In this document: one piece after another, positions 4,390 through 22,927 of the stretch
Position numbering within the stretch: position 1 is the first letter of the stretch
How the letters are laid out: each line of letters starts with the position of its first letter
From: a virus
Reading direction: 5' to 3' (one strand)
IMG/VR virus record: IMGVR_UViG_3300022933_000292
Location: 1-23,343 of that record
DNA: 23,343 nt
The notes under the pieces: model-generated
What the model saw: the letters and a program-made list of their open reading frames with translations, nothing else
Databases searched by the model: none
What the model was told of the DNA's origin: nothing
Translations under genes and position numbers: made by a program

Positions 4390-4704
4390 ATGAACACTTT
4401 TGAACGCATACACAATAGGATTGCTTATATCCTAATTCACAAGGTAGGTAAGTTCCTCCTTATTCTTTTGTACCTATATTTGAGTGTCTGTTCGGCTTGT
4501 GTATTAGGCTTCGTTGTAGGTGGGCTACTTGGCTACTTTAGTCAATTATATTTTAATTACTTTTTTACATATATTGTAGTCGTTCCTCTTGGTCCAGGAT
4601 TTATCGTGGGTGTTGTGTGGGGACTCATTATTTTCTCCCTCAGTTCTATTGGCTTGTTTTACGAACTGCTAACTGGGAGAGATAATATAGGGCATGATTT
4701 ATGA
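4390..4704 (+). CDS. Small membrane protein of unknown function
   Basis: 104 residues from ATG 4390, preceded by ATAAGGAG. At least two hydrophobic stretches long enough to span a membrane are visible, about residues 21-45 (LLILLYLYLSVCSACVLGFV) and 56-90, the second perhaps a hairpin; the N-terminus is basic, suggesting it stays in the cytoplasm. The stop codon overlaps the ATG of the next gene (ATGA at 4701-4704), so the two are probably translationally coupled. I recognise no family; it has no holin hallmark beyond small size and hydrophobicity, and no lysis gene is nearby. The 183-base gap before it holds the capsid terminator and no copy of TAGTTTNTTTAT. Confidence 0.65.
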   Translation: MNTFERIHNRIAYILIHKVGKFLLILLYLYLSVCSACVLGFVVGGLLGYFSQLYFNYFFTYIVVVPLGPGFIVGVVWGLIIFSLSSIGLFYELLTGRDNIGHDL

Positions 4705-5612
4705 GAGCGATACCATGCCCTATATCTAAAGAGCGTTTTGAAGACCTCTATACTAAACAATACTTAACAGAGAAGCAGATTAACGAGTTGTTGATTTCTG
4801 AGGGTATTGACTCAAGCATGAAGCGTATTGGTAGTTGGAGACTACGCTATGGGATTGAAACGGTATCTAAGTTTGATCGTCTTGAGCTACCAAAGATTGA
4901 GGGGGAGTTAAGATCAATCCTTATTGGTTCTATGCTAGGTGACGGTCGTATTGTTTTTCGTACTAACGCTTCACACTATGAGGAACGACACGCACCCAAT
5001 CAGAAAGAGTATCTTGAGTGGAAGCAAGAGAAGTGGGGCGTGTGGTCATCTGGAGATTTAGCAGTAGCGATGAGTAGGGAGTTCCCTAGTTATATCTTTC
5101 GCACCCACGCTCACCCTATGCTGAATGAGTATCGAGACTTGTTCTATGAGGAGAGGGATAAGGGGTGGAAAGTTGTTAAGTCTGATGTTATAGACCAAGT
5201 AGATGAGTTAGCTTTGGCTATGTGGTATCTCGATGATGGTCATGCAGGACATTGGCCTATTATTTGTTTTGGTGCAAAACAGGGGAGTCGAGCTAACGCT
5301 TACTTAATCTTTGAGAAGTTTGGTTTAGCCCCTAACTGGAAAGAAGTTAAAGGCACTAATGGGCAGTTCCATTTTAAGGGTGAGAACGCTTATCGTTTCA
5401 TTGAGATCATTAAGCCTCATGTACCCGATTGTATGTCTTACAAGTTGGACTTTGGTTTTCAAGGTCGTAACAATGCTATCAAGAAAAAGATGGACAAAGG
5501 CATCTTAGAGGACTTAAGGAGTAAGGGGTGGGGTAAGCGTAGGATAGCTAGGTATCTTGATGTAGGGGCGAGTACAGTGAGTCGTTGGATGGTTAAATTT
5601 GGGGTGGATTGA
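4701..5612 (+). CDS. LAGLIDADG homing endonuclease, free-standing
   Basis: 303 residues. Two LAGLIDADG-type motifs are visible: LIGSMLGDG at residues 74-82 and ALAMWYLDDG near 171-180, each ending in the acidic residue that binds the catalytic metal. Two motifs in one chain imply a monomeric enzyme cutting an asymmetric site. The N-terminal ~60 residues look like a helix-turn-helix, and the last ~35 (LRSKGWGKRRIARYLDVGAS and onward) form another DNA-binding helix-turn-helix of the resolvase/Myb-like kind. Homing enzymes spread their own gene into homologous loci. The neighbouring capsid gene is uninterrupted, so this is not an intron or intein at that locus. Its last 45 bases and the following promoter are duplicated at 6198-6252. 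Confidence 0.85.
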   Translation: MRAIPCPISKERFEDLYTKQYLTEKQINELLISEGIDSSMKRIGSWRLRYGIETVSKFDRLELPKIEGELRSILIGSMLGDGRIVFRTNASHYEERHAPNQKEYLEWKQEKWGVWSSGDLAVAMSREFPSYIFRTHAHPMLNEYRDLFYEERDKGWKVVKSDVIDQVDELALAMWYLDDGHAGHWPIICFGAKQGSRANAYLIFEKFGLAPNWKEVKGTNGQFHFKGENAYRFIEIIKPHVPDCMSYKLDFGFQGRNNAIKKKMDKGILEDLRSKGWGKRRIARYLDVGASTVSRWMVKFGVD

Positions 5613-5622
5613 TTTGTAGTTT
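5568..5622 (+). repeat. 55-bp direct repeat, copy 1 (endonuclease 3' end and promoter)
   Basis: Bases 5568-5622 match 6198-6252 with a single mismatch (A at 5580, G at 6210). This copy is the true 3' end of the endonuclease gene plus the start of the promoter-like element. Confidence 0.93.
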
Positions 5623-5628
5623 ATTTAT
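5617..5628 (+). promoter_or_regulatory. Promoter-like element TAGTTTATTTAT upstream of OMP-like gene
   Basis: Copy of the recurrent element, 31 bases before the start at 5660, immediately after the endonuclease stop codon. The leader is short and ends in the ribosome site ATAAAGGAGAG. Confidence 0.6.
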
Positions 5629-5659
5629 TAGTGTCTATTATCCATAAAGGAGAGACACC

Positions 5660-6190
5660 ATGAGACTTACTATCGCTTTACTCTTATCTGTCTTGCTCAC
5701 CTCTACGATTTCTCACGCTGAAGAGAATAACTGGGAAGTGAGTCTAGGCACAACGCAAATGTTCATCGGTGGGTACGAAGAGGGTTCAATACCTGTACCT
5801 ACGAACTCTGCCACATTCATCTTATCTCGTAAGATGTATGAGAGCTTTGCATTATGGGTTGTGTTCAATCTACCTACCTCCTCTAACAAAAGGTTTACAG
5901 AGGAAGGTTTACTTGTAGAGTCTCAGACACCACCTAGTCTTATGCTAGGTGCGAGTTATGAGTTATTGGGCTATGAGATCTCCGACAAGAAATCTTTAGG
6001 TCTTGATGTTGGTGCTTCAGTCGGACACACGATTACGCTTAATGGTCAGTTCTTCCCTGTGGGTGCGTTTCGTTTGAAGTTCGTTAAAGACGAGGACAGC
6101 ACTATGTATGCAGGGGTGACAACCTCACCATATAATCCAGATGGTGATTTGGTTTGGGGTTTGATCTATGGCATGGGGTATAGATTTTAA
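5660..6190 (+). CDS. Secreted beta-barrel-like outer membrane protein
   Basis: 176 residues from ATG 5660 behind AAAGGAGAG. Residues 1-20 form a classical signal peptide: MRL, a hydrophobic core (TIALLLSVLLTS) and a likely cleavage site SHA|EEN. The mature part alternates hydrophobic and polar residues, with Gly and aromatic residues at strand ends, and the chain ends in YGMGYRF; a terminal Phe is the recognition signal for insertion of outer-membrane barrels by the BAM machinery. The size suits an 8-strand barrel (OmpX/OmpW-like fold), but I cannot assign a family. It has its own promoter-like element and lies between two direct repeats, so it looks like an acquired 'moron' gene expressed in the infected host. 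Blocking adsorption of competing phages is a plausible role, not shown by sequence. Confidence 0.65.
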   Translation: MRLTIALLLSVLLTSTISHAEENNWEVSLGTTQMFIGGYEEGSIPVPTNSATFILSRKMYESFALWVVFNLPTSSNKRFTEEGLLVESQTPPSLMLGASYELLGYEISDKKSLGLDVGASVGHTITLNGQFFPVGAFRLKFVKDEDSTMYAGVTTSPYNPDGDLVWGLIYGMGYRF

Positions 6191-6197
6191 TGTGAGT

Positions 6198-6252
6198 GCG
6201 AGTACAGTGGGTCGTTGGATGGTTAAATTTGGGGTGGATTGATTTGTAGTTT
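6198..6252 (+). repeat. 55-bp direct repeat, copy 2 (fragment of endonuclease 3' end)
   Basis: Duplicate of 5568-5622 with one mismatch. It carries the last 15 codons of the endonuclease (STVGRWMVKFGVD and stop) without the rest of the gene, then the TAGTTT of the next promoter-like element. It is a scar of recombination rather than a gene. Confidence 0.93.
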
Positions 6253-6258
6253 CTTTAT
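6247..6258 (+). promoter_or_regulatory. Promoter-like element TAGTTTCTTTAT upstream of tag gene 1
   Basis: The element is followed by ATAATAGATCTTAAGTGATC and a leader nearly identical to that of the gene at 7473. Element start to ATG is 61 bases in both cases. Confidence 0.6.
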
Positions 6259-6307
6259 AATAGATCTTAAGTGATCTCTTTAACCTTAATCAAATGGAGA
6301 AACCATT

Positions 6308-6704
6308 ATGAGAAGATCTGCATCAGAAATTATAAGAAACCTTGATTCAAGGGTTGCTCATCTTGAAAAAAAAGTTAAGTAGTGGCACTGTTTCCTTGAA
6401 CGAAGGTATGGACTTTATCCTCTTAAAAGAAACAAAAGGCAGATCGCAGACTATGGGAGGTCGTGATTATGGAGTCTTCCATCTTCTTCCAGGCACTATA
6501 TTAAGAGTAGATAAAATCCGTTATGATCGTGGTGGTTATGGTGGTATGGAATTGGTTCTTGGTATTGTCTCACTTAACGCAGGTAGTATAAACGAAGTTG
6601 AAGACAAGATCTTCACAAGTGTGATGTGGGTAAATGGAAGGGGTGGAGGAGAATATATTCTTGATGGTACAGAGGGTAACCGAAAAAACATTAAAGTCCT
6701 TTAA
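6308..6704 (+). CDS. Shared-tag protein 1, frameshifted at an A8 run
   Basis: ATG 6308 behind TGGAGAA opens MRRSASEIIRNLDSRVAHLE, clearly homologous to the starts at 7473 and 9755, but reaches a stop at 6380-6382 after 24 codons. The downstream reading frame, one base ahead and open to 6704, encodes about 110 residues. The run of eight A at 6366-6373 is where they should join: with seven A the protein reads on as LEKKLSSGTVSLNEG and gives one chain of about 131 residues. Options are polymerase slippage or ribosomal frameshifting at the A run, a real inactivating mutation, or a homopolymer assembly error. The carboxy part (one or two beta-rich segments with GGRDYGVFHLLPGTILRV) matches no family I know and is unrelated to the other two tagged proteins. 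Confidence 0.6.
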
Positions 6705-8021: not shown

Positions 8022-9139
8022 TGGTCGATCCCTTGTTCACATAAAGGACAAGTATCACCAATCTCGCATTTGATAGCCTCAAGTTCCTCTGTGAGCCTTC
8101 CCACCTCTTGTTCAGTGCGAGAGATCCGACTGTACAGATCAAAGCGTTCAGAAGCGATTCTGAGGTCTTTTTCAATTTGTGTATTTACTTCTGGTAAATC
8201 AATTTCCATCCTTGAGATAGACTGGATTGTTTGGCTGAGGTCTATTCTCTTTTTTAGGACACTCTCAAGAGGTTTGTGATCATTGACTTCAACAGAGGGT
8301 ATTGTAGGGAACGATGTTAATCCGACCCCTACGATACCTTCCATAATCTTTAATCGGTTCTTTTCTCTCCTTATACGCTCAAGGTCTTTAATCCCCCTAA
8401 AGCCTTGAACATTTACTTGAGGGAAACTCACATCTTGTATGGCAGTTATAAAGTTTGTTTGATACATAAAGGATTCCCTTTTCTCTTTGATTGCCTCTAG
8501 TTTTTTCATTCTTTCTCCAAGGGTCTTAACTAGCCCCTCAAGATCATTTATATGACTGATCGCATTCTCTGCATCCGAGATCTCATTGAACTGTGGTAAA
8601 CGCTTTCGTTCAAACTCTAAGTCCTCATGCTTTACTTTTATGCGTTGATTAAGGCTCTTAGTTTCGCTCCTAGAGAGACTTGATGCTTTCTCTAGGGTTT
8701 CTATTGTCTTTACATCAGACAACGCACTAGAGAGGACACTAGGTGGCATATCAAGCAAGAAGATTTGTTCAAACTGTCGAGCGATTTGTGGCCAGACAGT
8801 TTTCCCATCAACATCAACTGAAATAATGTTCAAGTCATCAAGCTCATCGGGAGTCTTTGATCCAACTTTATCTAACTTTTGTCCGTTGATCTCATATTTA
8901 TTAACCCCTTTGCCCTTTTCCCAAATTACCGAGTTGCCATCATCAAAGTTGATAGAGACTTTAGAAGATTTTTCGCCTTGCCTTACATGAGAATATCCCC
9001 TTGCATTAGAGAAAGCACCTGCTATGGCTCTTGCACAAGCAGACTTACCTGTATTATTAGCCCCTGTAATAACAGTAAGACCTTTAACTTCAAAGTCAGC
9101 GTGTTTGATAGATTGGTAGTTTTCTATTTTGACTTGCAT
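8018..9139 (-). CDS. Rad50/SbcC-like ATPase N-terminal half ending at zinc hook
   Basis: 373 residues on the minus strand from ATG 9139. The start (MQVKIENYQSIKHADFEVKG) is the typical first strand of SMC/Rad50 ATPases and is followed by a Walker A motif, GANNTGKSA, at residues 26-34. Q and D residues of the lobe-I ATPase follow, then a long coiled coil (about 160-365) rich in Glu, Lys, Leu and Arg. The chain ends in CEIGDTCPLCEQGIDH: CPLC is the zinc-hook motif that normally sits at the midpoint of Rad50/SbcC. The second coiled coil, the ABC signature and Walker B are absent, and no gene in the window supplies them. Either the partner half is encoded elsewhere or this is a distinct hook-ended ATPase. 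It is transcribed opposite to all neighbours except the 21-kb pair. Confidence 0.75.
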   Translation of the reverse strand: MQVKIENYQSIKHADFEVKGLTVITGANNTGKSACARAIAGAFSNARGYSHVRQGEKSSKVSINFDDGNSVIWEKGKGVNKYEINGQKLDKVGSKTPDELDDLNIISVDVDGKTVWPQIARQFEQIFLLDMPPSVLSSALSDVKTIETLEKASSLSRSETKSLNQRIKVKHEDLEFERKRLPQFNEISDAENAISHINDLEGLVKTLGERMKKLEAIKEKRESFMYQTNFITAIQDVSFPQVNVQGFRGIKDLERIRREKNRLKIMEGIVGVGLTSFPTIPSVEVNDHKPLESVLKKRIDLSQTIQSISRMEIDLPEVNTQIEKDLRIASERFDLYSRISRTEQEVGRLTEELEAIKCEIGDTCPLCEQGIDH

Positions 9140-9188
9140 GGTGTCTTGTCTCCCATTCCCTTTATATGAATGATACCGAGTTTAGGTT

Positions 9189-9208
9189 TTTGTGACCCCT
9201 TAAATATA
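9189..9208 (+). promoter_or_regulatory. Second promoter-like element, TTTGTGACCCCTTAAATATA
   Basis: Matches 18 of 20 positions with each arm of the inverted repeat at 21850-21944. It lies 32 bases before the ATG at 9241, on the + side of the divergent gap between the ATPase gene and the small gene. Confidence 0.55.
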
Positions 9209-9240
9209 CCCTTATGTAACTCTTGAAAGGAGACTAAGAC

Positions 9241-9465
9241 ATGACAGATCAAAAGGCACAACAACTAAGGGATGCATACAATAAGTTCGTTGACCACCCC
9301 GATGGTCATTGGAAAGGTTCTGCCATTGCAGTGGTCAACCAAGCTCAGAGATCAATCGTTCGGGAAGCGATGGACTTTATGGGTTCAATCGTTGACCAAG
9401 AGTTAGAACTGAGTGATGGTAATATTGCTCTTTACAGTAAAGGATATTGGGCACATGGATTTTGA
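9241..9465 (+). CDS. Small protein of unknown function
   Basis: 74 residues from ATG 9241, behind a strong ribosome site (GAAAGGAGA). It is soluble and mostly helical, with QLRDAYNKFVDHPDGHWKGSAI near the start. No family recognised. It has its own element at 9189 and overlaps the next gene by 11 bases, so the two are probably translated together. Confidence 0.65.
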   Translation: MTDQKAQQLRDAYNKFVDHPDGHWKGSAIAVVNQAQRSIVREAMDFMGSIVDQELELSDGNIALYSKGYWAHGF

Positions 9466-9685
9466 GGTATATAAACTAACCGATGCTGAACTTGGGGCAG
9501 TAGACTTTTGTAGAGGTCGCTACCTATGGGCTGACATCGTAGCTCAAAACTTAGAGGGTGATACGCTTACCCTAGATAACATGACTCAACATGAGATGAA
9601 TGAGGCTATTGAGGTAGAGGGCATTCCTCTCTTAGATGATCGCACTGATCTTTTTCGAGGACTTATCTCTCTTGAGCCTGTGTGA
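9455..9685 (+). CDS. Small acidic protein of unknown function
   Basis: 76 residues from ATG 9455 (MDFEVYKLTDAELGAVDF). An in-frame ATG at 9413 exists but would put 42 more bases inside the upstream gene and add an unlikely extension; AAAGGA at 9439-9444 supports 9455. The product is acidic and soluble, with an EMNEAIEVEGIPLLDD segment. No family recognised. Overlap with the gene at 9241 suggests coupling. Confidence 0.6.
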   Translation: MDFEVYKLTDAELGAVDFCRGRYLWADIVAQNLEGDTLTLDNMTQHEMNEAIEVEGIPLLDDRTDLFRGLISLEPV

Positions 9686-9692
9686 ACTTTAA

Positions 9693-9704
9693 TAGTTTAT
9701 TTAT
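9693..9704 (+). promoter_or_regulatory. Promoter-like element TAGTTTATTTAT upstream of tag gene 3
   Basis: Recurrent element 62 bases before the ATG at 9755; the leader shares TCTCTTTAACC and AATGGAGAAACCAT with those of tag genes 1 and 2 but is otherwise more diverged. Confidence 0.6.
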
Positions 9705-9754
9705 ACCCTCTCATAGGAGTCTCTTTAACCCTTAACTTGAATGGAGAAACCATC

Positions 9755-11997: not shown

Positions 11998-12564
11998 ATG
12001 GATCAACAGTTAATGGAACAAATCTTTTCAGACGCACATGGATTGCATACCTGTCCTACTCCAAGTTATATCTCAGAGGACAAGGTGGAGAAAATCCACA
12101 TCGTCCTGGAACATATGAGCAAAGTTTCTCCTGTGGAAGCTGATATGGTTGAACTACATCTTCTACATGGTCTTAGCCAAGCATATCTAGGTAAAATCTT
12201 CGGATACACCCAGCCAAATGTCCATTATAGAGTTAATAGGGGGTTAGATAGATTAAAGGTGTATGCACAGATAACTATATATGAGGAGAAAGAGTTACGA
12301 AGGTTGCTTTCTGGTTTCTTCATAGAGGAGAAAGACATAGAAGTTTTAGTTCTTTTATATACCTACTCTAGTCAAAGTTATGTAGCTCGCCTATTAGGTG
12401 ATACACAGGGCAAAATTAGATATAGATACTTGAAGTGTTTAAAAGCGATGGAACAGTCAGCAAATTTAAAAGAGGTTTATCACACCTTTAAGGTAATAAG
12501 TGAAAACATCACACTCCTTAGAGTTCTACCAGAAGATGTAGAACGGAAAAAAGTAATCTTATGA
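11998..12564 (+). CDS. Sigma-region-4-like transcription factor with two HTH segments
   Basis: 188 residues from ATG 11998. Residues ~42-80 (VEADMVELHLLHGLSQAYLG then KIFGYTQPNVHYRVNRGLDRL) match sigma region 4: an acidic helix, then a helix-turn-helix whose second helix ends in the usual R-x-x-x-x-L. A second, similar unit follows at ~105-150 (EEKDIEVLVLLYTYSSQSYV then ARLLGDTQGKIRYRYLKCLKAM). No region 2 is visible, so it cannot melt DNA like a full sigma factor. It may be a phage promoter-specificity factor or coactivator acting with host polymerase, perhaps at the TAGTTTNTTTAT elements. Position after NusG-like and clamp loader genes supports a transcription role; its size equals T4 gp55, but the sequence does not resemble that protein. 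Its stop overlaps the next ATG. Confidence 0.7.
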   Translation: MDQQLMEQIFSDAHGLHTCPTPSYISEDKVEKIHIVLEHMSKVSPVEADMVELHLLHGLSQAYLGKIFGYTQPNVHYRVNRGLDRLKVYAQITIYEEKELRRLLSGFFIEEKDIEVLVLLYTYSSQSYVARLLGDTQGKIRYRYLKCLKAMEQSANLKEVYHTFKVISENITLLRVLPEDVERKKVIL

Positions 12565-20202: not shown

Positions 20203-20772
20203 ATGAGAATAATCGTAGAAGGACTTATCGGTGTCGGTAAGTCCACATTCACAAAAGAAGCAAGTAAACACTTTAACCTGACTCCCATGTATGAATCGGT
20301 AGGTGATAATCCGTTCCTTGAAAAGTTCTATTCAGACGACCCAAGCCGATGGGCTTATACGCTTCAAATGCACTTTCTCTATGACAGGTTCTCAAAACAT
20401 CTACCAGAAAATACCTTGCTTGATCGTTCAATCTTCGGAGACTCCTGCTTTGCCAACATCTTAAGAGATGATGGAGTCCTTACCGAAGATGAACACAGCT
20501 CGTATATGAAGCATTTTGAGATGCTTAAGCCTTATATCCCCCCTGTTGATGTCTGTATCCACCTCCATGTTAGCGTAGAGCAAGCAATGGAAAGGATTTC
20601 TAAACGAGGGAGAGGATTTGAGTCGGGTATCGAGGAGTCTTATCTGCACAAGTTACAGGTTCAAGTCATGCAGATTCCAGATAGACTCCCTAAAGAGACT
20701 AAATACATCAAGCTCGATTGGTACGACATGGATGAGGGTCAGAGGCTAGATGTCATAAGAGGATTGCTTTAA
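20203..20772 (+). CDS. Deoxynucleoside kinase (dAK/dGK/dCK-like)
   Basis: 189 residues from ATG 20203. The P-loop GLIGVGKST is at residues 7-15; Glu31 in the YES motif is the expected base; NPFLEKFY and YTLQMHFLYDRF are typical of bacterial deoxyadenosine/deoxyguanosine kinases; DRS at 74-76 (LLDRSIFGDSCFA) is the family hallmark; the arginine-rich LID is RISKRGRGFE near 128-137. These enzymes phosphorylate deoxynucleosides with ATP and would recycle host DNA breakdown products for phage replication. The length fits the bacterial/phage group. Substrate preference cannot be read from sequence. The stop codon overlaps that of the opposing sirtuin gene in a TTAA. Confidence 0.9.
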   Translation: MRIIVEGLIGVGKSTFTKEASKHFNLTPMYESVGDNPFLEKFYSDDPSRWAYTLQMHFLYDRFSKHLPENTLLDRSIFGDSCFANILRDDGVLTEDEHSSYMKHFEMLKPYIPPVDVCIHLHVSVEQAMERISKRGRGFESGIEESYLHKLQVQVMQIPDRLPKETKYIKLDWYDMDEGQRLDVIRGLL

Positions 20773-21560
20773 TCCTCAACCGTCAGTTGTTGCACTAAGT
20801 TTGGTAGGTAGTCCTCTGCCCTCTCAGTGGTGTAGTTAAAGCTCTTGGACTCTTGGGACGGATTAGGGTCGATGATATACATCGGTTTCCTCATCTGCCT
20901 ACCTGCTTGAACCACCATATTAGTGATCCCTACAGAGAAGCTAGTGCCGATAAAGACCACCATATCTGCTTCCTCTATAGCTTCCATAGCGTCATCTAAG
21001 CGATAGTCCTCATGAGAACCATAAAACTCATCGAACCACAGTGCGTGTGCTCTTAGTGGAACATCACATTTAGGACACATAGGTAGATCGTTCGGGTCTT
21101 TGGACTGTTCAAACTTCTTATAGTCAGCCCATACCTCGCTCATCGGGATTGAACCCCTCGGATCTCCATGATCACACCCATGATTAGGGCAACGCACAGC
21201 GTTGGTTGTACCATGTATTTCGATGACATTCTTTGATCCTGCCTTATTGTGCAAGTGATCTACATTCTGCGTGATGATGTCAAAGGTCTTACCCTCTGAC
21301 TCACACCATGTTTCAAGTTCCACGAGAGCTTTATGTGCGTCATTAGGCTCAAGGGCAAAGACACCCTTAAACTTGTCGAGATACCACTCCCACGCTTTTG
21401 CAGGATTACGGTTGAAGTAGCGTTGTGTGCCTTTCTCAAGGACATCATTAGCCCACACAGCGTCATCACCTGTTCGCCATGCTTGGATGCCCGATGAGGT
21501 ACTGATACCTGCACCCGTCACGATTAAGATGTTATCTGATGTTTTGATTGAGTTTAGCAT
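20769..21560 (-). CDS. Sir2-family NAD-dependent deacylase (sirtuin)
   Basis: 263 residues on the minus strand. GAGISTSSGI at 16-25 binds NAD; TQNVDHLH at 97-104 and catalytic His116 in EIHG are intact; Cys at 124, 129, 162 and 165 form a zinc site with C-x4-C instead of the usual C-x2-C; GTSFSVGI supplies the second NAD-binding loop. The 'FRG' loop is altered to WRTGDDAVW but keeps Arg29. Near 57-63, WEWYLDKF lies where CobB has Tyr and Arg for succinyl/malonyl removal: the Tyr is present and the Arg appears to be Lys. All catalytic parts are there, so activity is expected, though the substrate is unknown. The ATG overlaps the end of the WGR gene by seven bases, so the two proteins are probably coproduced. 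Confidence 0.92.
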   Translation of the reverse strand: MLNSIKTSDNILIVTGAGISTSSGIQAWRTGDDAVWANDVLEKGTQRYFNRNPAKAWEWYLDKFKGVFALEPNDAHKALVELETWCESEGKTFDIITQNVDHLHNKAGSKNVIEIHGTTNAVRCPNHGCDHGDPRGSIPMSEVWADYKKFEQSKDPNDLPMCPKCDVPLRAHALWFDEFYGSHEDYRLDDAMEAIEEADMVVFIGTSFSVGITNMVVQAGRQMRKPMYIIDPNPSQESKSFNYTTERAEDYLPNLVQQLTVED

Positions 21561-21799
21561 GATAGTTCCATCCTCTCTACTTTGTAGCCCTTATTGAGCT
21601 TTTGTGGTGCTTTTTTCTCGAAGTACATTCGATCCTTAGTGATTGCTGTACCCCAATCCCCTATGCGTCCATAACGGACGATGACAGTTCCATCTGGACG
21701 GCCTGTAGCCTCCCAAAACTTATAGTGTCCATTCTTGTGCTCCAAACGGAGTCGGAAGGTTGGGGCGAGGTTGCATTGTGTGATAGCGTCAATAGCCAT
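21554..21799 (-). CDS. Standalone WGR-domain protein
   Basis: 81 residues on the minus strand from ATG 21799, behind AAAGGAGAACC. The body is a single WGR domain: FRLRLEHKNGHYKFWEATG, then VIVRYGRIGDWGT with the name-giving W/G/R pattern, then FEKKAPQKLNKGYK, which matches the domain's ending. In PARPs, WGR binds DNA-break ends and 5' phosphates; standalone bacterial versions are of unknown role. It is the first gene of a two-gene unit with the sirtuin, and the seven-base overlap implies coupled translation. The link of WGR with NAD-consuming enzymes (PARP, sirtuin) is suggestive of a shared job in NAD-dependent protein modification or sensing of DNA damage. Confidence 0.85.
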   Translation of the reverse strand: MAIDAITQCNLAPTFRLRLEHKNGHYKFWEATGRPDGTVIVRYGRIGDWGTAITKDRMYFEKKAPQKLNKGYKVERMELSC

Positions 21800-21849
21800 G
21801 TTGGTTCTCCTTTAGTGAGTGATTGGTTGTTGGGGATTGCCCTTACAGG

Positions 21850-21944
21850 ATGATATAAATAAGGGGTCACAAATTAATGTTTCCCTTAAGATATAGGTAC
21901 TTAAGATAGCTTTGATTTAATTTGTGACCCCTTATTTATATCAT
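21850..21944. promoter_or_regulatory. 28-bp perfect inverted repeat, probable bidirectional promoter
   Basis: Bases 21850-21877 are the exact reverse complement of 21917-21944, with a 39-base spacer. Each arm reads outward as TTTGTGACCCCTTATTTATA. The right arm ends 53 bases before the ATG at 21998 and the left arm 50 bases before the ATG at 21799, so the layout is nearly symmetric. The element at 9189 differs from it at two positions. The 198-base gap holds nothing else that I recognise. The two arms could also form a long hairpin if transcribed. Confidence 0.7.
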
Positions 21945-21997
21945 ATTGTCGAGGTTGACAATGACCTCACCCCCTAACTCCCCAAACGGAGAACCAC

Positions 21998-22927
21998 ATG
22001 GTCAGCACACTATCTGCTTTTTTCATCACAATCATCGCTTCAGCCATCCACAGTGCGTGGGAAATGGCTGTCGCTTCGCTCTCTAAGGCTGAGGTTAAGT
22101 CAGCCTGTAAAAACAAGGTCTTCGGATCTTGTGCGTTGAGCAAGGTGATGAATGATAAAGAGTCTTTTATTAGCACCAATACCATCTGTAATAACATCGC
22201 CAACATCATGGGATCTGGTGTTGTCGGTACTAACGCAGGTCTGTGGCTTGGGTCTGAGTATGTTGGGTTGGTGATGGGTATCCTCACCTTCACGATAATC
22301 ATCTGCTCAGAGATCATCCCTAAAGCGTATGGTACGAATAACCCTCTCTTTGTGGGTCGTGTCTTCGCTCCTATGATGGTTTTACTGTCATGGGTACTCA
22401 CACCTATCAACTGGGTCATAGGAAAGCTCACAGCTCGTTTTAAGAGCGATGAGCCTTCTGCTATCATAGAGAAGATCTACGAGGGTACTTATAACCTTTC
22501 ACTCACGACTGTTGAGCAGGTTGGTACTCCACGAGTCAACATGACCACTGTCCGAGCAGATGAGCGACTAGAGGACATCAAGCCCTCTCTCTTTGAGAGT
22601 CAGCACTCACGACTTGTCGTACTTGGTAAGAACCGAGATGATGTAAAGGGTATCATGCTTCTCAAAGACGCTTTCCAAGCTCTTGCTAAGGACGAGAACC
22701 CTACTGTCGAAGAGCTTACTCGTACCGTCCTCAAGGTTGAGTCCTCAACCACCTGTGAGGAAATGTTCAAACAATTCACTACAAGCAAGACTCACCTCGC
22801 TGTCATGGTAGGCGACTTTGGTGGGACAGATGGTGTCGTGAGTCTTGAGGACATCATGGAACTGATGACCCAAACCGAGATCACCGATGAAACAGACGAG
22901 CAAGTCTGTATGCGTGAGGTAGGGTAA
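21998..22927 (+). CDS. CNNM/CorB-type membrane protein (DUF21 plus CBS pair)
   Basis: 309 residues from ATG 21998, ribosome site ACGGAG. Three or four hydrophobic helices occupy residues ~1-150: the first is FFITIIASAIHSAWEMAVAS, where SAxEMA(x)xS resembles the DUF21 signature; NNIANIMGS and TIIICSEIIPKAYG (cf. 'F-G-E-i-x-P-K') are characteristic DUF21 segments. The C-terminal half has two CBS-like units, HSRLVVLGKNRDDVKGIMLL and HLAVMVGDFGGTDGVVSLED. The family (CorB/CorC, MpfA, CNNM) is linked to Mg/Co efflux and to divalent cation resistance. The protein lacks the CorC_HlyC transport-associated domain that often ends the family, so its length is short. A phage copy is unusual; it shares the bidirectional promoter with the WGR-sirtuin pair. 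Confidence 0.82.
   Translation: MVSTLSAFFITIIASAIHSAWEMAVASLSKAEVKSACKNKVFGSCALSKVMNDKESFISTNTICNNIANIMGSGVVGTNAGLWLGSEYVGLVMGILTFTIIICSEIIPKAYGTNNPLFVGRVFAPMMVLLSWVLTPINWVIGKLTARFKSDEPSAIIEKIYEGTYNLSLTTVEQVGTPRVNMTTVRADERLEDIKPSLFESQHSRLVVLGKNRDDVKGIMLLKDAFQALAKDENPTVEELTRTVLKVESSTTCEEMFKQFTTSKTHLAVMVGDFGGTDGVVSLEDIMELMTQTEITDETDEQVCMREVG

Follow-up and report, generated by a model that had tools for sequence, protein, structure and literature searches.

Each arm of a perfect 28-bp inverted repeat in the 23,343-nt phage DNA analyzed here (the window) is one outward-read copy of an undescribed promoter-like element, GTRACCCCTTATYTATA. We consider it quite probable that the arms are a clade-specific promoter pair, that their extra identity came from template switching or gene conversion, and that the GTG form of the element in this phage reflects co-adaptation to a changed reader. 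In the proposed mechanism, a GTRACCCC upstream box fused to a -10-like TTATYTATA would constitute a clade-specific phage promoter, two outward copies of which would drive, head to head, WGR-SIR2 leftward and CNNM rightward. A recent template-switch or conversion event would have copied one arm onto the other, beyond the promoter core.

The left arm (21850-21877, ATGATATAAATAAGGGGTCACAAATTAA) and the right arm (21917-21944, its exact reverse complement) are 28 bp each and 100% identical, and they are separated by a gap of 39 nt (21878-21916). Extension to 33 nt lowered the match to 94%. The pair was by a wide margin the longest close inverted repeat of the window; none of 100 dinucleotide shuffles contained an arm, and no further copy of either arm was found in the window at ≤3 mismatches. 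The repeat is real and not a product of chance. The promoter-like core GTGACCCCTTATTTATA lies on the minus strand of the left arm (21870-21854), reading leftward to WGR-SIR2, and on the plus strand of the right arm (21924-21940), reading rightward to CNNM, with a core-to-core gap of 53 nt (21871-21923). An exact search with the window's own long arm gave no match in IMG/VR, and the 2.6-kb region gave no nucleotide match in annotated phages.

The leftward unit is headed by a gene for an 81-aa WGR-domain protein (21554-21799, minus strand; PF05406), followed by one for a 263-aa SIR2-family protein (20769-21560, minus strand; PF02146). These two ORFs overlap, so the genes plausibly form one unit. 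On the other side, a 309-aa protein with CNNM and CBS domains (PF01595 plus CBS) is encoded on the plus strand at 21998-22927. The left arm lies 50 nt from the ATG of the WGR gene (21799) and the right arm 53 nt from the ATG of CNNM (21998). The first-pass annotation had reported the perfect repeat, both distances and the three gene names, all of which were confirmed. Among the window and the five CNNM-bearing relatives (L003 to L007), WGR directly adjoins the left promoter-like copy only in the window: one to three other small genes intervene in L003, L004, L005 and L007, and in L006 the leftward unit opens with a different gene. L004 also carries a second, divergent WGR gene (87 aa) after SIR2 in the same direction, and a DNA match similar to it was found downstream of SIR2 in L007.

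A direct-repeat search of the window revealed a third outward-reading motif copy spanning 9189-9217, with the element itself (GTGACCCCTTAAATATA) at 9192-9208 on the plus strand; this copy is single and lies upstream of an ORF at 9241-9465. The first-pass annotation had missed this third copy at 9192, the dozens of copies to which each arm belongs, and the lineage-specific base common to the three window sites. In relatives retrieved by CNNM and SIR2, the element proved to be abundant, with 50-60 copies in a related 376-kb jumbo-phage contig (G003). Allowing ≤2 mismatches, we obtained 69 matches in G003 versus 10 for the reversed pattern, and 46 in the 227-kb contig G005 versus 0. Strict sites numbered 54 and 38, respectively (reversed-pattern control, 0), and nearly all of them were located between genes (50/54 and 34/38). 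A sense start codon was present within 100 nt of 41/54 and 31/38 strict sites, at a median distance of ~50 nt, and antisense start codons were near only 9 and 8. The information content of the element resides mostly in a contiguous 16-17 bp; a T-R-T at positions 23-25 contributes less and is followed by purines. No sigma-70 promoter (TTGACA and TATAAT-like hexamers spaced by 16-18 nt) was predicted at the arms (21850-21950).

In the leaders downstream of the element, 5' hairpins with a stem starting near position 28 were in excess. Leader position 29 was paired in 0.63 of the sites versus 0.31 in shuffles, and the mean hairpin energy was -8.3 versus -5.6 kcal/mol. Because the stem begins there, transcription would start by about position 27, just outside the arms; in the proposed mechanism the start would lie outside but close to each arm, ~24 nt from the GTRACC G, and so the mRNA would not carry the repeat. 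Motif alignment and hairpin position place the putative start of the WGR-SIR2 leader near 21846 (21800-21846, minus strand; Shine-Dalgarno AAAGGAG) and that of the CNNM leader near 21948 (21948-21997, plus strand). Two hairpins lie in the CNNM leader, one at its 5' end (GAGG/CCTC, 21951-21968) and a small one (CTCC/GGAG, 21978-21991) that covers the Shine-Dalgarno sequence. This layout recurs 3' of GTRACCCC sites: the predicted start is immediately followed by a 5' hairpin that varies in sequence, and then come an A/C-rich stretch and a small hairpin (CTCC...GGAG) over the Shine-Dalgarno sequence.

Sites of the GTRACCCC class were concentrated at 340-360 kb of the 376-kb contig, where one 20-kb bin holds 19 of them; the clustered class might be early. 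A second promoter-like class, TAGTTTRTTTATA, has a TTATTTATA-like core in common with the GTRACCCC class and is spread differently along the same contig. Its sites, too, are intergenic and in sense orientation: 23/25 of those in G003 have a sense start no more than 100 nt away. In the window, this second class (pattern TAGTTTNTTTATA) was observed upstream of plus-strand genes at 2552, 5617, 6247, 6916, 7412, 9693, 12817 and 19749, and the motif at 2536-2563 is a near-palindrome, TATAAATAAACTGTAATAGTTTATTTAT.

Divergent pairs of the element were found at ~10 loci, with start-to-start spacings of 23, 56, 66-68, 79-82 and 91-94; contig G028, which is about the same phage as G003 (identical spacers), was left out as non-independent. 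The spacings in G003, G005, G007 and G008 step by ~11-12 bp, which could reflect a helical-phase preference, the independent loci being few. All five CNNM-bearing relatives contained a head-to-head pair upstream of CNNM, with cores GTAACCCCTTATYTATA or GTAACCCCTTGTYTA, and the pair was kept even though the gene on the far side differs. The earlier proposal of a symmetric divergent promoter thus gains support, judged from sequence, from a genome-wide sense intergenic element and from the CNNM pair in the five relatives; the pair would be symmetric because two divergent units each use the common promoter.

Promoter function explains the symmetry, but not the 28-bp identity. The typical exact run between two promoter copies was ~15 bp, and ~15-18 bp of the arm identity can be put down to the promoter common to both arms. 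Only 1 of 2,512 same-genome site pairs had an exact run of 28; exact runs were 9-22 bp in other divergent pairs, whose similarity hardly exceeded that of random site pairs (Mann-Whitney p = 0.047), and 10-19 bp in the orthologous CNNM pairs of the five relatives. Beyond the core, the window arms have in common 7 bases upstream and 4-5 downstream. The window left arm is identical to the left arm of the related contig G001 from the core through TATCAT, save for one A-to-G base, whereas the right arms of the two differ at more places. On the simplest reading of these sequences, the left arm may have been copied onto the right.

Spacers between arms were also rearranged. The CNNM spacer in L006 is reversed relative to those in L003, L004, L005 and L007, and comparison of the L005 and L006 spacers gave z values of 9.5 in the inverted and 0.7 in the direct orientation; the window's own CNNM spacer aligned to none of the five relatives' spacers. 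A second locus (G003 at 171 kb versus G024) shows an inversion, at 95% identity, of both arms together with their spacer, between collinear flanks and leaders. An apparent inversion between G026 and G018 was due only to contig orientation. Template switching between inverted repeats is reported to homogenize arms and invert spacers (PMC8604942), and the combination of both events points to this process. Further shuffling is suggested by the leader sequence TGTCGAGGTTGACAATGACCTCA, which four genomes carry on the CNNM side but L007 on the opposite one. The recent gene conversion proposed in the first-pass annotation is thus plausible and favored by a run longer than usual and by the spacer inversions, the window case being one pair.

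The same annotation had offered a need for equal expression of the two sides as an alternative to copying, and a related explanation is that arm identity is upheld by selection for equal divergent expression or for a DNA hairpin or cruciform. Such selection would account for perfect 28-bp arms and for the strong stem predicted on both strands (z of -8.5 and -9.3). However, the orthologous pairs in the five relatives have exact runs of just 10-19 bp, unlike arms persist (for example, TTATTTA versus TTGTTTA in L003 and L004), and the far-side gene varies so that there is no fixed gene pair to balance; the equal-expression claim was accordingly not supported, and we regard selection for identity as unlikely. 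A good deal less probable is a phase-variable switch in which a site-specific recombinase would act on the arms to invert a promoter. The arm-bounded spacer inversions at two loci are in its favor, but known invertible promoters sit inside the flipping segment, whereas in the present pair the arms themselves are the promoter-like cores, facing outward, and inversion would leave both genes equally served. In addition, the same sequence occurs singly at many loci, and arm matches range from 9 to 28 bp.

Another reading places a T4-type late promoter, TATAAATA, in each arm, read inward so that convergent transcripts would pass through the repeat. This sequence occurs 6 times in the window versus 1.1 expected, including on the inward strand of each arm, but the element and the TAGTTTRTTTATA class face genes in the opposite reading (sense at 41/54 and 23/25 sites), and the third copy shows TATATTTAA rather than TATAAATA on that strand, making inward promoters slightly more improbable even than a switch. 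Least probable of all is a small MITE-like mobile element with the arms as its terminal inverted repeats, a form of the mobile-element end that had been raised earlier. Inverted repeats around a short spacer and many copies per genome would fit, but most copies are single, the spacers are unrelated from locus to locus, and the copies lie in sense orientation at a set distance upstream of start codons; even the metagenome-assembled genome (MAG) AUK107, which carries the 17-mer in a long dispersed repeat, has flanks unrelated to the phage's. An outward promoter pair homogenized by template switching or conversion thus remains our preferred reading.

The three element sites of the window all read GTGACCCC, whereas the relatives read GTAACCCC. 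At ≤1 mismatch, motif position 3 was G at 3/3 sites in the window, 13/13 in G008, 4/4 in G007 and 1/1 in G009; it was A at 54/54 sites in G003, 38/38 in G005 and in nearly all other contigs. With a looser pattern, G007 and G008 each had one GTA site, and a few GTA contigs carry single GTG sites. Placed along G003, the window and contigs G007, G008 and G009 occupy non-overlapping positions and may be one genome, in which case the GTG sites would represent one lineage and not several independent events.

The window is strongly mosaic relative to G001, with identities of 97-98% in some segments and 80% in others, a sign that related phages recently exchanged DNA. In detail, identity is 97-98% at 4701-6345 and ~80% in adjoining segments, and the 730 nt at 8976-9705 match at all but one base. 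That base is the A-to-G change at 9194, within the third element copy, so that a GTG promoter is present in DNA that the window recently had in common with a GTA phage; the odds of striking that one base by chance are ~1 in 730. Selection by a changed reader appears to be the best explanation of the GTG change at all strict-match sites; the two window arms add to its support, perhaps counting once if one arm was copied from the other. We lean toward the view that, under such selection, a single-base switch from GTAACCCC to GTGACCCC took place at every strict-match site in one lineage and changed the specificity of its whole promoter regulon. If this is true, a change of reader, be it a phage factor or the host polymerase, exerts strong selection on promoters, and one template-switch event could convert both promoters of a head-to-head pair.

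The reader would be a phage-specified or phage-modified holoenzyme. Profiles for the beta and beta' RNA polymerase subunits (PF00562, PF04997) had no match in G003, G005 or LR745208, contigs that are possibly incomplete and in which diverged subunits could escape; sigma region 2 was not found in the large relatives, and a T7-type polymerase profile had no match, with an uninformative control. The window encodes a sigma-70 region-4 protein (11998-12564) whose orthologs in GTA relatives share 87-89% identity with it. Between this GTG phage and the GTA relatives, its helix-turn-helix (residues 57-88) contains only K/R- or D/E-type substitutions, and residues 68-82 are identical in all proteins compared. 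This protein was not supported as the co-changing reader because its recognition-helix segment is essentially unchanged. Among bacterial genomes, a longer form of the motif had no match, giving no sign of a host using the element, and 17-mer hits outside AUK107 were one per genome, as expected by chance. MAG AUK107 was rejected as a host with the same promoter since its 17-mer copies sit in a long dispersed repeat with unrelated flanks; ~25 copies of this repeat (L202-L236), which is well over 100 nt and happens to contain GTAACCCCTTATTTATA, were observed.

In jumbo phages of the phiKZ/AR9 type, genome-wide families of phage-specific early promoters have been described (PMC7598289). As in those phages, one conserved motif precedes many operons here, with an AT-rich part near the expected -10 position; in contrast, the present promoter-like element has a contiguous 17-bp core with a C-rich box (GTRACCCC), and no multisubunit phage RNA polymerase was detected with the profiles used. 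T4 late (TATAAATA) and sigma-70 promoters also have an AT-rich -10-like part, but the present element, read toward the gene, combines TTATYTATA with an upstream box, and the T4-type orientation is opposite. Among T7/T3/SP6-type phages, a few promoter bases differ between relatives and are tied to polymerase specificity. Similarly, the base change here is concerted across the genome, as a changed reader would predict, although no T7-type polymerase profile matched. Homogenized arms and an inverted spacer resemble quasipalindrome template-switch mutagenesis in yeast (PMC8604942, PMC7202029), except that the spacers here are longer (~53 nt) and the arms are putative promoter copies in a phage. 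In the open-licence papers searched, GTAACCCC was nowhere described as a phage promoter. The element was also absent from LR745208, an uncultured 485-kb phage, and is therefore confined to part of this phage group; the capsid protein of the window phage is 89% identical to that of LR745208 and 39% to that of phage G.

The element provides a ready-made promoter map for an uncultured giant-phage clade, and comparison of GTA and GTG genomes makes the reader findable. A one-base change at all sites between close relatives is a natural experiment on the retuning of dozens of promoters. As template-switch substrates, head-to-head duplicated promoters could yield a perfect inverted repeat without selection for a hairpin.

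Two other features of the window were observed. Three paralogous plus-strand genes at 6308, 7473 and 9752 have a conserved leader and N terminus (MRRSAS..N LE..VARLEK), and paralogs of this type recur in G007 and G008. An ORF for a LAGLIDADG-type endonuclease occupies 4701-5612, and its 3' end is repeated (91%) 630 nt downstream, past an unrelated ORF, the two repeats being located at 5554-5628 and 6184-6258.
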